Shown here in pieces: positions 3,644 through 14,581 of a stretch of 21,408 bases of DNA. Every line of letters starts with the position of its first letter. Position 1 is the first letter of the stretch. The notes beneath the pieces were generated by a model. It was not told the origin of the DNA, did not search any database, and was given only the letters and a program-made list of their open reading frames with translations. A program made the position numbers and the translations under genes. The DNA is from a virus, in the IMG/VR virus record IMGVR_UViG_3300006929_000155, positions 1 through 21,408 of that record; one strand, 5' to 3'.

Positions 3644-5263
3644 ATGATGAACATGGACCCGGCAATAAAAGAAGAAAAAATACCAGCAGGTGGTATAGCT
3701 GACTTTATTTATACCGATGAAGAACTTAATGTTCTTGAAGACCAAGAACTTGAGCAGGTTTTCGGTGCGTCTGGTATTGCACAATTTAAAAAAATTGGTA
3801 AGAAAATAGCTGAGTATGGTCGTTACGGTGATGATACAGTAGCTCATGTGGAAAAAGGCGAGCTTATCGTGCCACGGGCCTTGATAGAAGATAATCCAGA
3901 ATTAAAAGAAAGTATTTTTTCACATCTAAAAGAACTGGGCGTTGAAGACCCAGAAAGATATGTAGTAGGAACAAGTAAAAATAGTATAAACCCTGACACA
4001 GGATTACCTGAATTTTTTCTAAGCAAATTATTTAAAGGTATTAAAAAAGGCGTAAGTAGTATAGGACGCGGTGTATCAAAGGCTTTTAAAGGTGTAGGTA
4101 AAGCTCTTAAAAAAGCAGCTCCTATAATTATACCTTTGGCTTTAAACTTTATGTTTCCGGGTTTAGGCGCTGTATATTCAGGTGCTTTGGGTGCAGGTAT
4201 AGGAACTTTGGTTCAGGGCGGAAGCGTACAAGACGCGTTTAAATCTGCTGTATTAGGCGGTGCTACGGGTGCTGTATCAGCTGGGTTTGCTGGTGAAGGC
4301 GGTTATGCTAACTTTGGTGAAAACGTAATGGCTGACGTACGTCAGGGAACTGCAAATATTGGGTCTGCTTTTCAAGGTAATTTTAAAGCTTTAACGGGTA
4401 CAACAAGTGCGCCGTCAAGTTTAAGAGATTTAATAGGTGAGTCAGAAGTAAAACCTTTTGTTACAGATGAGCAAGTTTTATCTGGGATGCCTAAAGGTGT
4501 AAACTATTCAGCAAAAGATCTTTCTTCATCAACAGGTTTAAAACCAAGCGAATTTCAATTTGATTATCTTCCGGGTGGTCCTGAAGGAACATACGCGCCT
4601 CCACCAGAATCAACGTCTATGTTTCAAAGTATGAAAGATTTTGGTACGCAAACTAGTGATTTATTATTTGGTAAAACTCCTACAGTTGAACAATTAAATG
4701 CAAGAGCAGCAGAATTAATAGCAAAAGACACTAGTGGAAAATTAACTTTTGACACTGCTTTGAAACAAGCTACAACGGAAATGAGCCCCGGTTTTTTAAG
4801 AAAATACGGTCCCTCAATAGGTATTGCGGGGTTAGGACTAACAGCAGCCGGTGCTTTTGATGAGCCTGAACAAGAAAGATTAGATGTACCAAGATCAGGT
4901 TTAGACGTTTATAGAGAAAACCCAGATTTATATAACGTAGGCAGCTTAACACGAAGCACGGGTCAAGGGACTTATGCAGTTCCGACAAGTTACGGTTTTC
5001 AATATAATCCTTATGTTTTTTCACAAGCACCTTTTCAAACAGCAGCTGACGGCGGTGAAATATTTCCAAGAAGAACTGGCGGTATCGCTCCTAACGAAGG
5101 CACACCGGGGAAAGATAGTGTTAGAGCTATGTTGATGCCGGGTGAATTTGTAATGACAACAGACGCTGTAAAAGGATTAGGTAACGGAAACCTTAACGCA
5201 GGCATAAATAATATGTATAGTGTTATGCGTAAACTAGAAAACAAAGGAAGGGCGATGGCATAA
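3644..5263 (+). CDS. Putative internal virion / DNA-ejection protein with membrane-active segment
   Basis: 539 residues. Adjacent ATG codons at 3644 and 3647 and another at 3653 make the exact start uncertain; the upstream sequence is A-rich without a clear ribosome site. Residues 62-80 (GDDTVAHVEKGELIVPRAL) and 489-508 (GKDSVRAMLMPGEFVMTTDA) both match the pattern 'G-x-D-S/T-V ... GE-F/L-V/I' seen near the ends of phage tape-measure-type proteins. Residues 127-158 are Lys/Gly-rich and amphipathic, followed by a hydrophobic, glycine-rich stretch at 159-215 (PIIIPLALNFMFPGLG; ALGAGIGTL) that could cross or disrupt a membrane. A second hydrophobic patch (IGIAGLGLTAAGAF) lies near residue 390. 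The C-terminal 71 residues begin with a DGG motif that recurs in two downstream proteins. It is the first of four consecutive ejection-type genes; the role is inferred. Confidence 0.7.
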   Translation: MMNMDPAIKEEKIPAGGIADFIYTDEELNVLEDQELEQVFGASGIAQFKKIGKKIAEYGRYGDDTVAHVEKGELIVPRALIEDNPELKESIFSHLKELGVEDPERYVVGTSKNSINPDTGLPEFFLSKLFKGIKKGVSSIGRGVSKAFKGVGKALKKAAPIIIPLALNFMFPGLGAVYSGALGAGIGTLVQGGSVQDAFKSAVLGGATGAVSAGFAGEGGYANFGENVMADVRQGTANIGSAFQGNFKALTGTTSAPSSLRDLIGESEVKPFVTDEQVLSGMPKGVNYSAKDLSSSTGLKPSEFQFDYLPGGPEGTYAPPPESTSMFQSMKDFGTQTSDLLFGKTPTVEQLNARAAELIAKDTSGKLTFDTALKQATTEMSPGFLRKYGPSIGIAGLGLTAAGAFDEPEQERLDVPRSGLDVYRENPDLYNVGSLTRSTGQGTYAVPTSYGFQYNPYVFSQAPFQTAADGGEIFPRRTGGIAPNEGTPGKDSVRAMLMPGEFVMTTDAVKGLGNGNLNAGINNMYSVMRKLENKGRAMA

Positions 5264-6171
5264 TGGCAGTAGAAGAAACCATTCAAACCGTTAGAGAAAG
5301 TCCGGAGATAGAAGCCTATCGAATTGGGCTTTTAAAATCAGCTAAAGAACTGGCGGATCAGGGCGTAACTTTACCTACGCAACAAGTCGCAGGGCTCACG
5401 GGTCTTCAAGAAGCAGCTAGAGCCCAAGCAGAGCAAGGTCTGGGCGCTTTTATGCCGTATGTTACTACAGCGGGACAGACTTTAGGGACAGCGGGACAAA
5501 CACTTGGCGGGGTAGAATCAGCATTAAGAGCTGGAGCTGGTCCTGTAACAGGGGACATGATTACTCGTTATATGAACCCTTATCAGTCTGCTGTTCAAGA
5601 TGAAATTAACAGAGCTTATGATATGCAATTAAACCAAGCTCGCGCAGGAGCGGTAGGTTCAGGCGCTTTTGGTGGATCAAGAGGACAGATAACAGAATCA
5701 GAAGTAGATAGAAACAGAGCTTCTGCTTTAGCGCAAGCGCAAGCACAGAATTTTATGCAGGCACAAGCGGGTGCTGAAAGAGAACTTGCAAGACAATCAG
5801 CTCTTGGTCAAGGCATAGCAGGGTTATCTGGGCAACAACAGCAACTTGGTTTAAGACAAGCGGCTCTTGGAGAAACGCTTCAAGGATTAGGTCAAAGAGA
5901 TGTAGAGGGCGCTTATAAAATAGGGCAGTTATTACAAGCACAAGATCAGGCTCAACTTGAAGCTCAAAGACAAACCGAAATGGGACAACTTTACGAGCCT
6001 TATCAAAGGTTAGGCTTTTTAAGCGATATTTACAGTAAAATACCTACTTCACAATCAACAATTACACAGGCCAGTGCGCCTAATGTATCACCGTTTCAGC
6101 AATATTTAGGCCTCGGTATTGCAGGATTATCAGCGGCAGCAGGGGCAAACAGAGCGGGGTTATTCGGATGA
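5263..6171 (+). CDS. Ala/Gln-rich internal virion (ejection-type) protein
   Basis: 302 residues, start overlapping the preceding stop as TAATG; GGAAGGG at 5246-5252 is a possible ribosome site. The centre contains RYMNPYQSAVQDEINRAYD followed by GAVGSGAFGGSR, a pairing I recall from podovirus internal virion / DNA-transfer proteins. Downstream, residues about 145-250 are Ala/Gln/Glu-rich and helical (ALAQAQAQNFMQAQAGAE), probably coiled coil. The C-terminus has a short hydrophobic run (YLGLGIAGLSAAAGANRAG). A seven-residue unit, TAGQTLG, is repeated in tandem near residues 68-82. By analogy with the short member of the T7 or P22 ejection sets it may be delivered into the host envelope with the DNA; this is inference. 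Its stop overlaps the next start by 4 bases (ATGA). Confidence 0.7.
   Translation: MAVEETIQTVRESPEIEAYRIGLLKSAKELADQGVTLPTQQVAGLTGLQEAARAQAEQGLGAFMPYVTTAGQTLGTAGQTLGGVESALRAGAGPVTGDMITRYMNPYQSAVQDEINRAYDMQLNQARAGAVGSGAFGGSRGQITESEVDRNRASALAQAQAQNFMQAQAGAERELARQSALGQGIAGLSGQQQQLGLRQAALGETLQGLGQRDVEGAYKIGQLLQAQDQAQLEAQRQTEMGQLYEPYQRLGFLSDIYSKIPTSQSTITQASAPNVSPFQQYLGLGIAGLSAAAGANRAGLFG
5467..5498 (+). repeat. Short in-frame tandem repeat (21-bp period)
   Basis: ACAGCGGGACA occurs at 5467-5477 and again at 5488-5498, 21 bases apart, encoding two adjacent TAGQTLG units. It looks like a small in-frame duplication inside the Ala/Gln-rich virion protein. Confidence 0.7.
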
Positions 6172-8990
6172 TGAATAGAAGTTTATTGCAACGACAAATG
6201 TTTGCAAACGGCGGAGCGGCTTTAAAACCCATACCAGCAGGTAATCAAGGTTTGCCAAATTTGCCGAAAGAAGTGCGCAACAACATGGGATATATGCAGG
6301 ATGGAGGCGTTGCAGGTTTGATGCAACAACCGGACATGGCAGCTATGCCAATGGAACAGCCACCAATGGCGGCTCAACAGGGTATGGACCCTAATTTACT
6401 TATGGGCGCATTAGAAAACGCAGCAGAAACAACAGGTGATTTAGAACAAGCCTCTGACTTTGAAAGCATGATGAACCAGTTTTCAGGTGGGGACAAATCA
6501 GAAGAAGAGCGAAGAACAGACTTAGCTTCTATTGTAGGTCCTGATGATGCTTCACAAACACCTGATAGTGTTTTAGCTCTTGTAACACCTGTCGTTCAAA
6601 TGGCGATGGTAGATGAAGGCATTGCACCGATGGCTCGCGAGGCAATGGACGTTCCGGTCGAAGGCGATATGGCTGGCGGAATAATGAGCATGACGGGGGC
6701 TGGCAACGAACCACCCGAAAATTTTAAGTTAGGCGGTGAGGTTCGCCGCCGTGGAGACGAGGACCCAGTTCAATATTTTGCTTCTACAAACGCTAATCGT
6801 GTAGCTGGAGACAGTAGTGGTAGGTTTACGCCTTTTCCAAATGTTACGGACACCAACATCAGTAATTTAGCTTTAAATCAAGCTGCTATAGCAAATAGAT
6901 TAAATATATTAGGGCAGATACCCCAAGCCGGTGAAGCCCGACCTTTGCAAGAAATTTTTGAAGATAAGAAAGATATATACAGTACGATTTTAGGAGACCC
7001 CGAAACACAAAAGAAAAGAACACAAGCGGATATTTTATTTGATATTGCAAACACGGCTTTAACTTTTTCGGCTCCTATGGAAGGAGAAAGGCCGGGTATG
7101 AGCGCAGCTGAAAGATTGGCGTTTGCAGCAACAAAAACAAAATTACTTCCTACTATAGCCGCAAGAGCCCGTGCAGATTCGCAGGCTCAACAGAAACTTG
7201 ACTTAGCTGCTTTGCAAGCCGCAGAAACTACGCAAGCGTCAGAAGCAAAATCAGCTAGTGCGGAAAAAACTAAAAGAATGGAGATAATGGGCAAAACTTA
7301 TAATCTAAAACCCGGTGAAAAAATTTTTAACAGAGCGGGTGATTTAATTGCAGAGGGCGGAGCTAAAGAGCAAGTTTTAAAACCGGGGGACGTTCTTATG
7401 AGAGGGACTGAAATAATAGCTAGAGGTGACGATAAGACTATTATATTAAGCGCCGGTCAAAGTATTATTCAAGATGGAAAAGTAATTCACAGCAAACCCG
7501 GAAGATATAGTTTAGCTCCAAACGCAGTGGTAAAGGATGAAAACAATAAAGTTATAGCATCTGGTGTAAGAATGATTAAAAACGTGCCGGAAGATTTATT
7601 TAATAAAATGAGTAAAGTCAATCAAGACATATTATTAGGTGTTTTAAGTAAAAATGTAAAAGGCCTGCCAACACAATTTTTCTTAAAGTTAGACGAAGCA
7701 GGTCAACAAAAAATAATTTTTGGCACAGAAAAAGTTAAAGGTATTCCAAAACCAACATTTGACGCTTTAACTAAAGACGAACAAGATATTGTATTAGGCA
7801 TTAAACCAAACACAGAAGAAAAAATTAAAGGTATTCCAAGAAGTATATTTGAAAAGTTTCCAAAAGCTGTGCAAATGCACATTGCAGGAGCCACTCAGGT
7901 TCTTAAACCGGGCGATTCTGTTATGTTTAACAACGAAGTTATTACTACAATACCTCCTAAAAAAGAAATAAAAGAGGTTAATGGAGAGTTGGTAATTGTT
8001 AATCCAGAAGATAATAGTACGGTAAAACTGTATGGTGAGAGAAAACCATTACCATCAAAGTTTTTTAATGTGACTATGAACGGAGTAACAACCGTTGTAG
8101 ATGCAAACACAGAAACAGGTATTAATACAATAGCCAGAGCTAATGCACTAAACACCGCGACACCCGGATCTGCAATAGTGACTACAATAAGCGCAGAGAA
8201 AAAATTTACTCCGCAAGCATTTTTATTAAAAGAAGATAATAAAGTTGTTACAAGTTATGATAATGGTAAGACTTATCAAGAGGATGGCGGTGAAATTGTA
8301 CCAATTAAAAATGCAATACCAATCAGTCCAGATAAATCTTATGAAGTGCACAATTCAGAAAAAATTAAATTAAATGCTAAAGATGAATTAAAAAAGTTAA
8401 ACGACAAATTTGCCACAAGTGCTAACTTTAATGACAGGGGTATTCCAGAACATCTTATTAAAGATTTTGAAGATGTTCAAAAAATGGTTTTAGACGGCAC
8501 AGGACCTTGGGCTAATATAAGAGCGGCATTTATGGCTATAGAAGGTTTTATACCCGATATTTTAATACCCGATTTTTTAGAAAAGGCGGGAAGATCTACT
8601 ACACAATCAAGACAATACCTAAGAGTAGTAACTGCTTTAGGTCGTTCCGCTTTAGTTAAAAACAACAAATTCCCAGTAAGAGAGATGGAATTTGTTAAAA
8701 CATTATTTCCGGATCCAGAAAAGTTTTTTACAGAACCTCGAAGAGAGGTTGAAAAATTAGTAACTTTAAAAGAAACTTTATTAGCACAAAAAGTTGAAAA
8801 TTTAAAAAGGTTGCAAGCAACAGGGTTAGAATTAAAAGATAAAAATAATTTAGTGGTTAACAACTCTGAGATAGATAGATTAATGACATTGTTAGGTGGA
8901 TACACTACAACAATTACACCTTCTAGTGGTGGTACTATAGTTAATGACCAAGAACAAAATGTTCTTGATAGCGTGATTATGGCCCCGTAA
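6168..8990 (+). CDS. Large internal virion (ejection-type) protein with two tandem repeat arrays
   Basis: 940 residues; two adjacent ATGs (6168, 6171) are possible starts, the first forming an ATGA overlap with the previous stop. The N-terminal 200 residues are Met/Gln/Gly/Pro-rich and carry the recurring motif: MFANGGAALKP (11-21), YMQDGGVAGLM (42-52) and FKLGGEVRRRG (186-196). Residues about 280-375 are helical and Ala-rich. Residues 380-469 hold four beta-hairpin-like units of 22-24 residues (LKPGEKIFNRAGDLIAEG, LKPGDVLMRGTEIIARG, then two divergent copies). Residues 470-578 hold four helical units of 26-30 residues starting with variants of VKGIP, and a fifth hairpin unit follows at 579. 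The rest is mixed, ending in a helical domain from about 740. No catalytic motif is recognised. Gene order suggests a T7 gp15-like position in the ejection set; this is inference. Confidence 0.65.
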   Translation: MMNRSLLQRQMFANGGAALKPIPAGNQGLPNLPKEVRNNMGYMQDGGVAGLMQQPDMAAMPMEQPPMAAQQGMDPNLLMGALENAAETTGDLEQASDFESMMNQFSGGDKSEEERRTDLASIVGPDDASQTPDSVLALVTPVVQMAMVDEGIAPMAREAMDVPVEGDMAGGIMSMTGAGNEPPENFKLGGEVRRRGDEDPVQYFASTNANRVAGDSSGRFTPFPNVTDTNISNLALNQAAIANRLNILGQIPQAGEARPLQEIFEDKKDIYSTILGDPETQKKRTQADILFDIANTALTFSAPMEGERPGMSAAERLAFAATKTKLLPTIAARARADSQAQQKLDLAALQAAETTQASEAKSASAEKTKRMEIMGKTYNLKPGEKIFNRAGDLIAEGGAKEQVLKPGDVLMRGTEIIARGDDKTIILSAGQSIIQDGKVIHSKPGRYSLAPNAVVKDENNKVIASGVRMIKNVPEDLFNKMSKVNQDILLGVLSKNVKGLPTQFFLKLDEAGQQKIIFGTEKVKGIPKPTFDALTKDEQDIVLGIKPNTEEKIKGIPRSIFEKFPKAVQMHIAGATQVLKPGDSVMFNNEVITTIPPKKEIKEVNGELVIVNPEDNSTVKLYGERKPLPSKFFNVTMNGVTTVVDANTETGINTIARANALNTATPGSAIVTTISAEKKFTPQAFLLKEDNKVVTSYDNGKTYQEDGGEIVPIKNAIPISPDKSYEVHNSEKIKLNAKDELKKLNDKFATSANFNDRGIPEHLIKDFEDVQKMVLDGTGPWANIRAAFMAIEGFIPDILIPDFLEKAGRSTTQSRQYLRVVTALGRSALVKNNKFPVREMEFVKTLFPDPEKFFTEPRREVEKLVTLKETLLAQKVENLKRLQATGLELKDKNNLVVNNSEIDRLMTLLGGYTTTITPSSGGTIVNDQEQNVLDSVIMAP
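7305..7574 (+). repeat. Four tandem beta-hairpin-type protein repeats
   Basis: Within the 940-aa protein, units begin at residues 380, 404, 427 and 449, that is every 22-24 residues. The consensus is roughly L-K/S-P/A-G-D/Q-x-I/L-x-x-x-G-x-V/I-I-A-x-G. Copies 3 and 4 (LSAGQSIIQDGKVIHSKPG; LAPNAVVKDENNKVIASG) are more divergent. A fifth unit (LKPGDSVMFNNEVITTIPP) lies at residue 579, after the helical repeats. Confidence 0.7.
7575..7898 (+). repeat. Four tandem helical protein repeats (VKGIP type)
   Basis: Units begin at residues 470, 497, 523 and 553 of the 940-aa protein with IKNVP, VKGLP, VKGIP and IKGIP. Each continues as x-x-x-F-x-x-L/M-x-K/E ... Q-x-x-I-L/F-G. At DNA level the 15-mer TTAAAGGTATTCCAA is identical at 7735-7749 and 7825-7839, consistent with duplication. 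Confidence 0.7.
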
Positions 8991-11900
8991 TGAGCGATTT
9001 AAAATTAAAACCTATTATATTAGACCAACCCGGTATAAATGAATTTTATAAAGTATTTGGTGCAGGCAAAGAAACCGTTGTAGGCGGTGTTCAAAAATTT
9101 ATGCCTGTTGACGAAATTATCGCTAGAGACGTAGCTTCAAAGTCTAGTACACAAATGCCCGGAATTTTTACCTATGAAAATTTAAAAGATGGGACAGCGC
9201 CTCTTTATGATTTATTACCTCTTTGGAAAGATATGTCTATCGATCAGCGTATAAGTAAATTAGGGACTAATGATAAAATTATTCAATTTTTAACCCGTAC
9301 AAGTAAAGGCGAAAAACTTGAATTTGGCACTATGGCTGAAGGTGCAAAAAGAGATGCTGCGCCGCAAGCATTTTCTTTAACCGGTCTTATAGCTGGGGCT
9401 AAAGTTGGTACACAGATAGCATCGAAAATCCCAGCCGTTGGGTTGCCGGGACTTGCAGTTAAATTTGGTATTCCTGCTGTAACAAGCATACTCGGTGCAT
9501 TTGGGGGTTGGAAGGGTGGAGAGTTTTTAACCTCTCAATTATTTGGTGACGAAAAAACAATATTACCGGGAACAAGAAAAGCTTATGCACAAGGAAAAAC
9601 AGCAGTTGGCGCTTTATCTTGGTTGCCTTTACCTTTTTTAATTTCTAAAAATGTTGATTTTGGAGCAGCTAAATATTTAGACAATTTAGCAGAAATGATA
9701 AAAAAAGGTTACGTTGTTAATCAACCTTTTTCTACATTTCAATCAGGGGTGGCCAAACAATTAACAACAGGAAAAGCGCCAAGAACAGCTCGTATTATAG
9801 CGGGCATTGAAAAAATGTTAACAGCGTCAGGTCAGTTTGCTAAAAAAAACCCAAAAGCTACGCTTGCAGTAGAAAGTATAGTTATGGGTTCTCAAACTAC
9901 ACTAGCAGGGGAATCAGAACAAAGTTTTCCCGGGGAGCCTCTTCCAAGAATAGGCATGGAGTTAACAGGTTCTTTTGTGCCGGGTGTTTTAGGAACGATT
10001 GTTATAGACAGATTCGGGACGGTACTTCAAGCTTTAAAAAATAGTTATACAAAAATAAAAGACACTGGTTTTAAAGAAGGGTTAAATATTTTAAAACAAA
10101 AACAGCAAAGGGGTGGTGCTGAAAAAATTATAAAACTCTTAGAAGAACATGGGGAAATTGATCCAGCAAGTGCTATAGATCAAACAAAATTTAACGCTTT
10201 AATTAAAAAACTAAGTGAAATAGAGGAATTTCAAACAGGTACTGCTTTAACCGCAGGCTTAAAAGCTAACAGCCCTGTTTTAATGTCTATAGAAGCGGCT
10301 TTAGCTCAAACAAGCAGAGGTTTAGGTAAACAACAAAAATCTGCTATTTCTCAACAAGGTACTGCTTTAAGAAATATGATAGCAGCTTTAATCAGAACAG
10401 GTGATCCGGTCGCTATTAAAGAAGCAATGAGGCTGTCTCAATCTATTTTTGAAACAGCTATAGGAACAAGATTAACCAACGCCACCCAACAACTATTAGA
10501 ATCTTTTTCAAAAGTCAAAGGAGATGATGTAGAAACTAACGCAGAATTAGGTAAAAATCTTTTTACAATGGTTGTAGAACAGTTGTCCCTTTCTCGTAAA
10601 ATGGAAAGAAACTTGTGGAACAAAGTAAAAACGGTAGAAATAGAAGAGTTTTTTAGCGGTGGACCAAAAAGAAAGAAATTAAACGAACCTAATTTTATAA
10701 AAGTTTTTAGAGATGAGTTTAAAGGCGATCCTGAAGAACTTATAGAATATCATGGCAAAACCATTGGTCCTTTAATAAAATATGTAAATAGAAAAGCTGA
10801 AGAATTAGGGCTAGGACCTGTTGTTGATCCTAAACTTATAGATGAATTAGCAAAAATTAAAGCACAAGACTTTACAAAAGTTGATAATGCAATAGATAAA
10901 ATAATAAGATTTAAAGGAACAAAAACTACAGAGGGAGAAATACTTCCAAATGACAAGGTTTTTACTGCTATAAATAAAGCTTTACAAGATAACAACATAG
11001 ATCCAATTACAATGGCCGACTTAAAAGACGGCACCAAGTTTACAAAAAACCAAATGGATATAATAAGAAACTATTTTGAAGTAGGTTCAGCAGAACCTAA
11101 ATTATATCTTCAAACCGGTAAGGGCTCAGGAGAAAGAAACAAAGATTTAAGAAGGATGCACTCGGGCAGTCTGTCAATTTACAACCAGTCAAAAAAATAT
11201 TTTGAACAAATAGCTAAAAAAGTAGGTGTGGAACCTCCCCCTGCCGCAACAGGCGCTGTTGATGAAGTTGGTACTGTAACTACAAACGAACTCGTTAAAA
11301 TGAGAAGTTTAGCTTTAAGTATTGCAAGAGGTCAATCAGGCCCTAACGGTAATAAGACAGCCGCTGGATTTGCTACTCAATTTGCAAAAGCAATTTTAGA
11401 TGATTTAAATTCTGTTCCGGAAGGAGCTAATCCCAATTATGATGCAGCAAGGGCTTTTTCTGCGGCTTTAAACAAGGTTTATACTCAAACTTTTGCTGGC
11501 GATATAGTACAAAAAACAAATTTAGGTGTTTACAAAAACAACCCTGAAACTTTAGTTAAAAATCTTTTTTCCGGTGGGGCAGATGCAACTAATTTAAGAG
11601 TTAAACAAATATTTGAAATAGGTAATTTTGCACAAAAAAATAATTTAGAAGGAGCAGAACTTTTACCTAATACCATAAGCGGCACTTTAAATATGGTTTT
11701 AAGGAACGCTAAAGCCGCAGCGATTGACCCTGATACAGGAGAATTTAATCAAAAAGCTTTACAAAGATGGATGACAGAAAATAAAGACTTATTAGATAGT
11801 CAAGCTTTTCAAGGTTTAAAATCAGACTTACAAAATTTAGATACTGCCAAAACACTTTTATCGGATACTTTTTTTAAAAATAAAAATTTGCAAAAAAAAT

Positions 11901-14581
11901 TAGATGATCAATTATATTTTAAAAATATATCAGGAAAAAATGCCATAGAAAGTCCAACTTATATTGCAGGCATGGCAATAGCTGGTAAAAATCCTACAAG
12001 AGATATAAGAAACTTAACTCGAATGGCTAAGGCTTCAAAAAATCCAGAACAAGCTTTAAATGGTTTATACACCTCTATGCTAGAATACGTTATGACAAAA
12101 GCTGGGGGGACTAGCCAAGCTTTTAGTGCAAGAAGTATGTTTGATTCATTGTTTTCTGAAATGCCGACAGCATTAAAACGAACTAACCTATCCGATATAA
12201 TGATCCAAAATGGTATTGCAACACAAAAACAAATGGATAATGTTAAAAGATTTGTTACTGAATTAGTTAAATACGAAGCAATGGAAGCAGCGGGTAAATT
12301 TGGAGCAGATGATTTAATAGATAATTTAAACCCTGTTTTAGGTTTTTATTTAAAAATTTCAGGCGCTTCCATAGGTCAATTTGTTGCAAGTAAAATGCCA
12401 TTACCGGGTAGCAGAGGTATGGGAACAGGACTAATTGAATCTCAGGCAGGTGTTGAGATAATGCAAAGAATTTTTAGAAATGTTCCGCAAAGCATGAAAA
12501 TGGATGTTATGGGTGAGTTAATGCAAGATCCTGTAAGATTAGCTCAAATGTTAAAAAAAGTAAGAACAGAACAAAAAGCTAAAACAGTGTCTGACAGTTT
12601 AAGTAACTGGTTGTTATCAAGTGGGTTTAAACCAATAAAACGAGTAATACCTGCTATTATAAGAGAAGTAGATGAAGAGATAACAGGTCCAGAATTTCTA
12701 TATGACGAACAGAATTCGGTCCAGCCTAATGTAACGGGGTCTCCCACCACCCAAATTACGGCAAGACCAGATAGCGGTGTGAACAACCGCATCGCGGCTA
12801 ATGTGGGCTCACCCCCACCTGCCGCGCCGAATGTAAATCAAAGGGCGCAATTTGCTAATCTTTTTCCGGGCGATATAACATCAGGATTAATTAAAGCTCA
12901 ACAACCAACACAGTTCATGCAAGACGGCGGAGAGGTTTATGATTTAAGAGAAGCTCCGGGTGTAGACGATCTTAGAGCTTTAACTCTTGAAGAGTATAAA
13001 AAGTTTACATTTCAACAATTACTTAATTTAAAATTAGAAAAAGATAAAGAATTAGATAAGTTTAATAATCCAATAAAATATTTAACACAAGACTTTGCTT
13101 TAGGTATGAATACCCCAGCAGCTGTAGCAAAGTTAAAACAAGAATCATTTGAAAAAGCTAATCAATTAGAGAAACAAATACAACAATATGGTATGGATAG
13201 AGAAATTGCGATACAAAATTATCCTCAAGCATTAGCTCAAGGTGCCCCTGTTTCTATGAGACGAAAACAAGATATTGAATCAGGTAATGTACAAATTACC
13301 GGTTTTCCTGATTATTTAGTCAAACCAATGCAAGACGGCGGAGCTGCATACGATATGGGACTTGAAACAGATGTCCCGGCTCAACAATCAATTATGTCAG
13401 GATTAGGTGCTGGATATAGTGAAGATAGTGAAATAAATGTTTCTAATTTGCCTTCTTCTATTTCTTATAATCCGATATCTAAGGTTAAAGCTGGAATTAC
13501 AGCTGTAAGTAATCCATTAGTAGATAAAATAATGAAAGGTTTTAAAATAGGACCTTTTAAGGTGAGCCCACGCGGTTTAGGTTTTACGGGTATGATGAGA
13601 TTTGCTGACGGAGGTATTGTAGGATTAGCAAATGGTGGCAGACCGGGGGGCATGGATTTAACACCACAAGACTATCAAAATTATTTAGAAAGCACCGATC
13701 AATTTGGCCCTTCTAGTGAATTTGGCACAGATGTATCAGAGGAAACAAGAGCAGCTGATAGATATGAAGACCCAGATGAAGCCAAGGGCGATATGTTTTC
13801 ATTGTCACCGGAATTATTTCGTGACTTGAGAGGAGCTACAGAAACCAACCCTTATCCAGAATCTACGTTAAGTCGTTTATTTGGAGCAAATACTTTTCAA
13901 TACGCTAATGTATTAGGCGGTCAAGAAGAAGTAGATAGAGTAAACGCACTTAGACAAGCACAAGCGTTGTACCCTGAAGATTACACAAAAAAAGATTTTT
14001 ATGCAGGACAACCAACCGTTCGTGGCGAAGCTGTTGATGTTTCTAGCCCTGCTCTACGAGTTATGAAAGCTGCTTTGCCTTATGGGTTAGGTTCTTTTTT
14101 GCCCGGTAATTATTTACCAGAAGAAATGGCTCAAGAAATTTTAAACCCAACCCAACAAAAAAGATTTGATTTAAATTTTTCTAAATTATTTGATGGCACT
14201 AACTTAATGAATATGTTTCCATTTGCAAAAAATTTTGGAGCAAAAACAACAACTAATCAACCTACTCGATCTTATGAAGAAGAACAATTAATGCCAAGAC
14301 CTCAAATAAATAGGGGTTATGGTATAACGGAATTATTAAACGTATCTCCAAATGACCAAATACGACGAAATTTACCGTTATACAATTCAGAATATAACAC
14401 CTTTGATGCTAGAAACCGTTTATATTCAAGGTTAGCACCATCGGAAGTTAACGTAAACCCTTTTACATATGGCGGTCAACAAATGTTTGACTTAAAAAAT
14501 ATACGAAAAGGTTTTGGTACTAATACAAAAGTTGTTCCAGACGGTAAAGGCGGTTTTATTGTTCAACAGTTAGGAATTTAA
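8990..14581 (+). CDS. Giant internal virion / ejection-type protein (1863 aa)
   Basis: The largest gene here, about a quarter of the window; the start overlaps the previous stop as TAATG. Residues about 126-180 are hydrophobic and glycine-rich (LTGLIAGAKVGTQIASKIP; FGIPAVTSILGAFGGWKGG), a possible membrane-insertion region. Residues about 250-1240 are largely helical and Lys/Ala/Leu-rich with no recognised catalytic motif; I saw no convincing transglycosylase signature. Residues about 1240-1300 form a Pro/Asn/Thr-rich linker (VGSPPPAAPNVNQR) coded by unusually GC-rich DNA. The C-terminal 550 residues carry DGG motifs: FMQDGGEVYDL (1309), MQDGGAAYDMG (1447) and FADGGIVGLANGG (1538). Its size and last place in the ejection cluster recall T7 gp16, which forms part of the trans-envelope DNA conduit; that parallel is positional only. 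Confidence 0.65.
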   Translation: MSDLKLKPIILDQPGINEFYKVFGAGKETVVGGVQKFMPVDEIIARDVASKSSTQMPGIFTYENLKDGTAPLYDLLPLWKDMSIDQRISKLGTNDKIIQFLTRTSKGEKLEFGTMAEGAKRDAAPQAFSLTGLIAGAKVGTQIASKIPAVGLPGLAVKFGIPAVTSILGAFGGWKGGEFLTSQLFGDEKTILPGTRKAYAQGKTAVGALSWLPLPFLISKNVDFGAAKYLDNLAEMIKKGYVVNQPFSTFQSGVAKQLTTGKAPRTARIIAGIEKMLTASGQFAKKNPKATLAVESIVMGSQTTLAGESEQSFPGEPLPRIGMELTGSFVPGVLGTIVIDRFGTVLQALKNSYTKIKDTGFKEGLNILKQKQQRGGAEKIIKLLEEHGEIDPASAIDQTKFNALIKKLSEIEEFQTGTALTAGLKANSPVLMSIEAALAQTSRGLGKQQKSAISQQGTALRNMIAALIRTGDPVAIKEAMRLSQSIFETAIGTRLTNATQQLLESFSKVKGDDVETNAELGKNLFTMVVEQLSLSRKMERNLWNKVKTVEIEEFFSGGPKRKKLNEPNFIKVFRDEFKGDPEELIEYHGKTIGPLIKYVNRKAEELGLGPVVDPKLIDELAKIKAQDFTKVDNAIDKIIRFKGTKTTEGEILPNDKVFTAINKALQDNNIDPITMADLKDGTKFTKNQMDIIRNYFEVGSAEPKLYLQTGKGSGERNKDLRRMHSGSLSIYNQSKKYFEQIAKKVGVEPPPAATGAVDEVGTVTTNELVKMRSLALSIARGQSGPNGNKTAAGFATQFAKAILDDLNSVPEGANPNYDAARAFSAALNKVYTQTFAGDIVQKTNLGVYKNNPETLVKNLFSGGADATNLRVKQIFEIGNFAQKNNLEGAELLPNTISGTLNMVLRNAKAAAIDPDTGEFNQKALQRWMTENKDLLDSQAFQGLKSDLQNLDTAKTLLSDTFFKNKNLQKKLDDQLYFKNISGKNAIESPTYIAGMAIAGKNPTRDIRNLTRMAKASKNPEQALNGLYTSMLEYVMTKAGGTSQAFSARSMFDSLFSEMPTALKRTNLSDIMIQNGIATQKQMDNVKRFVTELVKYEAMEAAGKFGADDLIDNLNPVLGFYLKISGASIGQFVASKMPLPGSRGMGTGLIESQAGVEIMQRIFRNVPQSMKMDVMGELMQDPVRLAQMLKKVRTEQKAKTVSDSLSNWLLSSGFKPIKRVIPAIIREVDEEITGPEFLYDEQNSVQPNVTGSPTTQITARPDSGVNNRIAANVGSPPPAAPNVNQRAQFANLFPGDITSGLIKAQQPTQFMQDGGEVYDLREAPGVDDLRALTLEEYKKFTFQQLLNLKLEKDKELDKFNNPIKYLTQDFALGMNTPAAVAKLKQESFEKANQLEKQIQQYGMDREIAIQNYPQALAQGAPVSMRRKQDIESGNVQITGFPDYLVKPMQDGGAAYDMGLETDVPAQQSIMSGLGAGYSEDSEINVSNLPSSISYNPISKVKAGITAVSNPLVDKIMKGFKIGPFKVSPRGLGFTGMMRFADGGIVGLANGGRPGGMDLTPQDYQNYLESTDQFGPSSEFGTDVSEETRAADRYEDPDEAKGDMFSLSPELFRDLRGATETNPYPESTLSRLFGANTFQYANVLGGQEEVDRVNALRQAQALYPEDYTKKDFYAGQPTVRGEAVDVSSPALRVMKAALPYGLGSFLPGNYLPEEMAQEILNPTQQKRFDLNFSKLFDGTNLMNMFPFAKNFGAKTTTNQPTRSYEEEQLMPRPQINRGYGITELLNVSPNDQIRRNLPLYNSEYNTFDARNRLYSRLAPSEVNVNPFTYGGQQMFDLKNIRKGFGTNTKVVPDGKGGFIVQQLGI
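12917..12932 (+). repeat. 16-bp direct repeat encoding MQDGG, copy 1
   Basis: ATGCAAGACGGCGGAG here is identical to 13328-13343. Both are in the same frame of the 1863-aa gene and encode the MQDGG motif. A diverged version (atgcaggatggaggc) occurs near 6295 in the 940-aa gene. Confidence 0.8.
13328..13343 (+). repeat. 16-bp direct repeat encoding MQDGG, copy 2
   Basis: Identical to 12917-12932 and 411 bases downstream of it, a multiple of three, so in the same reading frame. Confidence 0.8.

Follow-up and report, generated by a model that had tools for sequence, protein, structure and literature searches.

A Gly-Gly motif as a probable joint between swappable mini-domains of virion-type marine phage proteins

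The window, that is, the whole stretch of DNA analyzed here, is a 21.4-kb virus record. It carries, in order, the end of a fibre-like gene, genes for proteins of 715, 129, 539, 302, 940, and 1863 aa, a lysozyme gene, and helicase and replication-type genes. The 715-aa protein is a virion structural protein (phrog_3287), and its homologue in phage DSL-LC04 (Gammaproteobacteria) is named stabilization protein. The 302-aa protein (5263–6171) matches the DNA ejection protein family phrog_4287 (E 2e-10), and the 1863-aa protein (8990–14581) is related to the 'DNA transfer protein' of DSL-LC04 (E 9e-33), so that both have sequence matches to known ejection protein families. The DSL-LC04 counterpart of the 539-aa protein (3644–5263) is annotated as 'tail tape measure protein', and residues 442–522 match the tape-measure PHROGs phrog_934, 37649, and 6090, as a tape-measure C-terminal module of the GPGTGTSDSIPAMLSDGEFVM type. 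The 940-aa ejection-type protein (6168–8990) had no match in the PHROG comparison. The genes for the 539-, 302-, 940-, and 1863-aa proteins, and the joints, modules, cassette, and 16-nt repeats located within them below, are on the plus strand. The order 715-(129)-539-302-940-1863 recurs in dozens of IMG/VR loci and in DSL-LC04, which was the sole match to the 1863-, 539-, or 940-aa protein among 50,697 phage records. The block is thus conserved and follows tail and stabilization genes, as does the P22/T7-type ejection set.

A sequence-only reading of the window had pointed to a short motif, F/M-A/Q-D/N-G-G, in three of these proteins. Every copy that it named in the 539-, 940-, and 1863-aa proteins is present in the sequence, although the 1863-aa protein holds four rather than three (MQDGG twice, FADGG at 13601–13615, and LANGG at 13625–13639). 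The 16-base stretch said to be shared by two copies is exact: ATGCAAGACGGCGGAG starts at 12917 and 13328 and occurs nowhere else on either strand of the window. KLGGEV rightly counts as a member, since it marks the place of a conserved 'PPVNFNQGGEV' in which F186, G189, and G190 are invariant. The placement of the copies in linkers also agrees with the AlphaFold2 (AF2) models, in which pLDDT is below 50 at residues 15–29, 39–78, and 185–230 of the 940-aa protein and at residues 459–476 of the 539-aa protein; the joints are therefore predicted to be disordered. Only local confidence was used, as the models are weak overall (pTM 0.30 and 0.25). A PDB fold search with the weak 940-aa model gave no match at E ≤ 0.001, a fold search of viral models with that of the 539-aa protein turned up nothing informative, and the 539 profile found no relative among solved structures.

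Relative to shuffles of the 539-, 940-, and 1863-aa proteins, the strict pattern [FMLYAVI][AQ][DN]GG was seen seven times against 0.16 expected (1 vs 0.05, 2 vs 0.03, and 4 vs 0.08, respectively). Because this pattern was picked post hoc, after reading the proteins, it was re-tested on homologues, with about 35 relatives per family compared with shuffles. Enrichment was strong in the 940 family (37 vs 4.0 expected) and the 539 family (34 vs 4.8), and moderate in the 1863 family (14 vs 4.8), where the copies were limited to the closest relatives of the window. The 302 family was depleted (4 vs 10.9), the 715 family had none (0 vs 2.2), and neither the other upstream genes (10 vs 6.7) nor the replication genes showed enrichment. 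The proposed link with ejection proteins thus holds for three of the four ejection-type proteins of the block, but the 302-aa DNA ejection protein has no joint. An unbiased compilation of all GG contexts in the 940 family gave (P/V)xx(F/M)(Q/A)(E/polar)GG(I/V)(V/A), with M (65 vs 17 expected) and F (53 vs 13) prominent at position −3 from GG.

Three GG pairs of the 940- and 539-aa families belong to the small set of invariant columns, and a fourth is nearly invariant, in alignments whose mean column identity is about 20%. At the N-terminus of the 940 family the layout is RQMFxxGG, a filling, and xxGG. The first joint is FANGG at 6201–6215 (R9, M11, F12, G15, and G16 invariant in 41 homologues). 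The second, MQDGG at 6294–6308 (G46 and G47 nearly invariant), closes the filling, and the third, FKLGG at 6723–6737, is the PPVNFNQGGEV site described above. In the window, the slot is filled by LKPIPAGNQGLPNLPKEVRNNMGYMQ, a mini-domain with the core LPxxVRNxMGY that we call module A (LKPIPAGNQGLPNLPKEVRNNMGYMQDGG, 6222–6308). Relatives carry there module A, the A-like A' or A'', module B, which is a dockerin/EF-hand-like loop (FPDLSGDGKVTQKDILMGRGV), or nothing. The homologous site thus accepts unrelated fillings while the GGs stay.

Among 50 distinct insertions and deletions in the 940 family, 9 are flanked by GG on both sides, against 1.08 for random placement and a maximum of 5 in 500 trials; several of the nine stem from one event, which leaves about six independent ones. 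There was no such effect in the 539 family (5 of 178 vs 2.9 expected), and in the 1863 family the count was 1 of 6. At two of the 940-family events the joint DNA has no exact long repeat; long homology is therefore not always needed. Two other features of the 940-aa protein were seen in passing. For residues 376–465 (window 7293–7562) AF2 predicts roughly a dozen short strands in which a hydrophobic/G-D pattern recurs (PGDVLMRGTEIIARG...), an arrangement resembling a beta-solenoid. The gene also contains an imperfect 36-nt direct repeat (7727–7762 and 7817–7852, 83% identity, 90 nt apart; VKGIPKPTFD / IKGIPRSIFE).

The 539-aa protein has an N-terminal GG site, IPAGGIADF (3683–3709), whose G17 is nearly invariant in the family, and a C-terminal joint, AADGG (5042–5056, residues 467–471), whose G470 and G471 are invariant in 51 homologues. 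Beyond this AF2-disordered joint lies a C-terminal module (EIFPRRTGG...DSVRAMLMPGEFVMTTDAVKG...NMYSVMRKLE, 5057–5260) with confidently predicted helices at residues 506–538.

In the 1863-aa protein the two 16-nt repeats (12917–12932 and 13328–13343, with the MQDGG codons at 12917–12931 and 13328–13342) delimit a cassette of 411 nt, or 137 aa (12917–13327). In two relatives, L003 (at about 90% identity) and L005, precisely the stretch from MQDGG to MQDGG is missing, and the junction reads ...TQF-MQDGG-AAYDMGLET.... The cassette is also missing from L014, which favours its gain rather than its loss. Another relative, L002, shares 98.8% DNA identity with the window from repeat to repeat, compared with 30–55% identity over residues 1–1200. 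Past copy 2 its identity drops over some 200 nt to 87%, then 49%, and then 33%, and upstream of copy 1 it stays at 82–98% across 210 nt. The transferred tract therefore ends sharply at copy 2 and starts before copy 1, so that only its right-hand breakpoint coincides sharply with the motif. Further downstream, the FADGG and LANGG copies form an island (FADGGIVGLANGG, 13601–13639) that is kept in L002, L003, and L005 within a highly diverged C-terminus. A G+C-rich patch at 12737–12826, encoding about NNRIAANVGSPPPAA, is conserved in L002, L003, L005, and L014; its DNA is 98% identical to that of L002, which is distant elsewhere.

We considered a signal at the DNA level. GACGGCGG occurs in the sense direction only and at three DGG codon sites only, and the MQDGG of the 940-aa protein uses codons unlike those of the 1863-aa copies; the conserved thing is therefore the protein, and a DNA-level signal was rejected.

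Modules A and B were found on many other phage proteins. In viral contigs of IMG/VR there were at least 503 confirmed matches to module A and at least 566 to module B; 80 loci per module were kept for study and 139 instances examined (60 A and 79 B). With the module masked, the carriers fell into 28 single-linkage clusters of otherwise unrelated proteins, some of which are only fragments, and we therefore count at least 20 unrelated carriers. They comprise the 940 family, DUF5872-like basic proteins, proteins of 260 to 860 aa, a phrog_4287 DNA-ejection protein, and proteins of 62 to 90 aa. The closing GG lies exactly 4 residues past the A core in 57 of 60 instances; for B it lies 6 residues past the core in 60 of 79 and 8 residues past it in 10 more. 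From one cluster to another, 67% of residues match for A and 79% for B, values inflated by search patterns that favor conserved instances, and identity at fourfold codon sites is at the random level (0.34 and 0.32). The sequences are therefore old and under selection on the protein. A mobile DNA element as vehicle of the modules was ruled out, since fourfold sites are saturated between carriers.

The neighbors of carriers outside the 940 family include terminase, portal, major head, virion structural, and DNA-ejection genes, with a minority of metabolic genes, and these neighborhoods fit a virion or delivery role for the carriers. A profile search of 60 virus records, most of them picked for having one module and all possibly incomplete, found A in 21 and B in 28, each exactly once, both in none, and neither in 11. 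A mutual exclusion of A and B is suggestive only, and the single copy per genome is the firmer result. Among bacterial genomes of 84,980 species, module A was nearly absent, with 7 loci, one apparently spurious (L237); most of the others come from marine single cells or metagenome-assembled genomes (MAGs). One contig of an Epulopiscium single-cell assembly (L231) bears a marine-phage-type module A protein and is possibly contamination. Module A also exists on its own, in microproteins about 38 to 60 aa long (L234, L233, and L230, the last being CRP-1 gp63). Small basic phage proteins have further recurring C-terminal motifs, GxAxxGTxFxGV/F and RGCGxVMxxRRKxTK (carriers L083, L086, L141, L193; L106, L124).

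A small, unrelated basic protein body (WIQKAIKKPGSLRKSLGVKKGEKIP..., 'KKPGSLRKSLG...') is a clean demonstration of module interchange. It is found alone or behind A (L235, a Chitinophagales MAG contig), A'' (L269), B (L238 and others, 13 of 80 loci), or a different EF-hand-like loop (L250), and the modules on it end in KKGG. Its match to the Fusellovirus VP2 capsid family is weak (E 0.02–0.18) and below the cut-off. This body (KKPGSLRKSLGVKKGEKIP...LGQRARLAETLKKM) is very common in viral contigs; it was noted at 12001–12072 of L229 (HTVC027P gp44) and in L238, L250, L269, and L235.

Across these proteins the GG is constant at fixed sites while the segments between GGs are swapped, gained, or lost as units, and some mini-domains reappear, with a set spacing to GG, in numerous phage proteins that are otherwise unrelated. 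We consider it probable that F/M-x-x-G-G, followed by a small or hydrophobic residue, is a flexible joint by which virion-type proteins of marine phages connect mini-domains that can be exchanged. Two glycines acting as a hinge would allow a new mini-domain to work on any carrier, and recombination products joined at this hinge would survive. Repeats in the joint DNA, 16 nt long here, might sometimes supply the homology. Specific function would be carried by the mini-domains and not by DGG; a putative binding or docking role, either inside the virion or during ejection, is plausible. More tentatively, the mini-domain vocabulary (the dockerin/EF-hand-like loop, LPxxVRNxMGY, and others) may be a set of functional equivalents, one copy per genome, plugged through GG onto an available virion-associated carrier or made as a free microprotein and serving one common packaging or delivery step; we hold this to be possible but doubtful.

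The sequence-only reading had suggested a protease-processing, assembly, or portal-docking tag that marks proteins for packing. As a packing or portal-docking tag, F/M-x-x-G-G would be bound by one virion component and every bearer would be packed. The enrichment in three ejection-type families only, the preference for F/M at −3 in the 940 family, and the location of module carriers near terminase, portal, head, and internal virion genes speak for it. However, the 302-aa ejection protein is without the motif, as is the 1863 family beyond close relatives; the sites have nothing but GG in common, the sequence after GG being specific to each site; and A and B are single-copy per genome, which counts against a tag present on each packed protein. 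We judge such a tag unlikely, and its broadest form, a common tag on all ejection proteins, was rejected in view of the depletion in the 302 family and the one copy of each module per genome.

A processing site, with proteolysis behind GG freeing the mini-domains in peptide form, seems slightly less likely still. GG-specific peptidases are present in some phages and count in its favor. Modules and bodies also occur as separate small genes (reading frames of 38 to 92 aa), as expected if the products work apart, and P22 gp20 may need cleavage (PMC8954989). Against cleavage, the window yielded no candidate GG-peptidase, and the residue before GG in relatives varies among E, K, D, N, Q, S, T, and M, a variability that does not fit a strict P1 preference like the T4-type L/I-x-E rule; a cut behind GG itself may nonetheless occur. 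The least probable explanation is chance or composition, namely that linkers rich in glycine contain many GGs and that the reader selected a pattern from them. The pattern was indeed chosen afterwards, and the 1863-aa protein contains about as many GGs as expected (15 vs 13.9), but this explanation is already contradicted by the shuffle tests, by the lack of the motif in the glycine-rich 302 and 715 families, and by the invariant columns.

The rapid divergence of ejection proteins makes it difficult to trace how they evolved and which of their parts do the work, and the Gly-Gly joint would provide a ruler for cutting them into parts. By marking mini-domain boundaries it may explain part of their mosaicism. 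The analysis also flags two very common, unnamed mini-domains of marine phages, modules A and B, the latter dockerin-like. That each occurs in single copy, and that the two apparently exclude each other, can be tested directly.

Several known systems bear comparison. The capsid-targeting sequence of T4 internal proteins is a short element on several packaged proteins. The Gly-Gly joint is likewise a short element present on several proteins, but it differs in having internal and C-terminal sites rather than N-terminal ones alone, no L/I-x-E cleavage consensus before G or A, and single-copy modules. Module B, found in relatives and not in the window, is like dockerin type I (PF00404) in its DxSGDGxVTxxDIL loop. 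Its best matches in Pfam and among PDB sequences are dockerins, and the calcium loop D-x-[SN]-x-D-G-x-[IV]-x-x-x-D is invariant or nearly so in the 79 instances; the best match to the Pfam dockerin family (E 0.008, 16.7 bits) is below the cut-off of 22.9 bits, and module B has one loop repeat instead of the two of dockerin type I.

Ejection proteins of the P22/T7 type (gp7/gp20/gp16 and gp14/gp15/gp16) are described as showing mosaic conservation and fast evolution (PMC8954989, a review in which the word glycine is absent). The block in the window is like them in having a series of three to four ejection-type genes behind the tail genes, a match to a DNA-ejection PHROG, and high divergence, and unlike them in its larger proteins. 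For the 940-aa protein, whose model is weak, the searches gave no sequence or fold match to solved ejection proteins. Fragment shuffling and ejection-protein mosaicism are thus known. The Gly-Gly joint and the A and B mini-domains had no earlier description in the part of the open-access literature covered, which is weak evidence of novelty. That unrelated phage proteins share exchangeable fragments has been described as protein-fragment shuffling, or domain mosaicism, in phage proteomes (PMC10684548, where the terms ejection, linker, and glycine are absent). Compared with that general shuffling, the exchanged units here are fragments of 25–40 aa or cassettes, they are bounded by a conserved Gly-Gly joint, and they belong to ejection-type and small head-region proteins.
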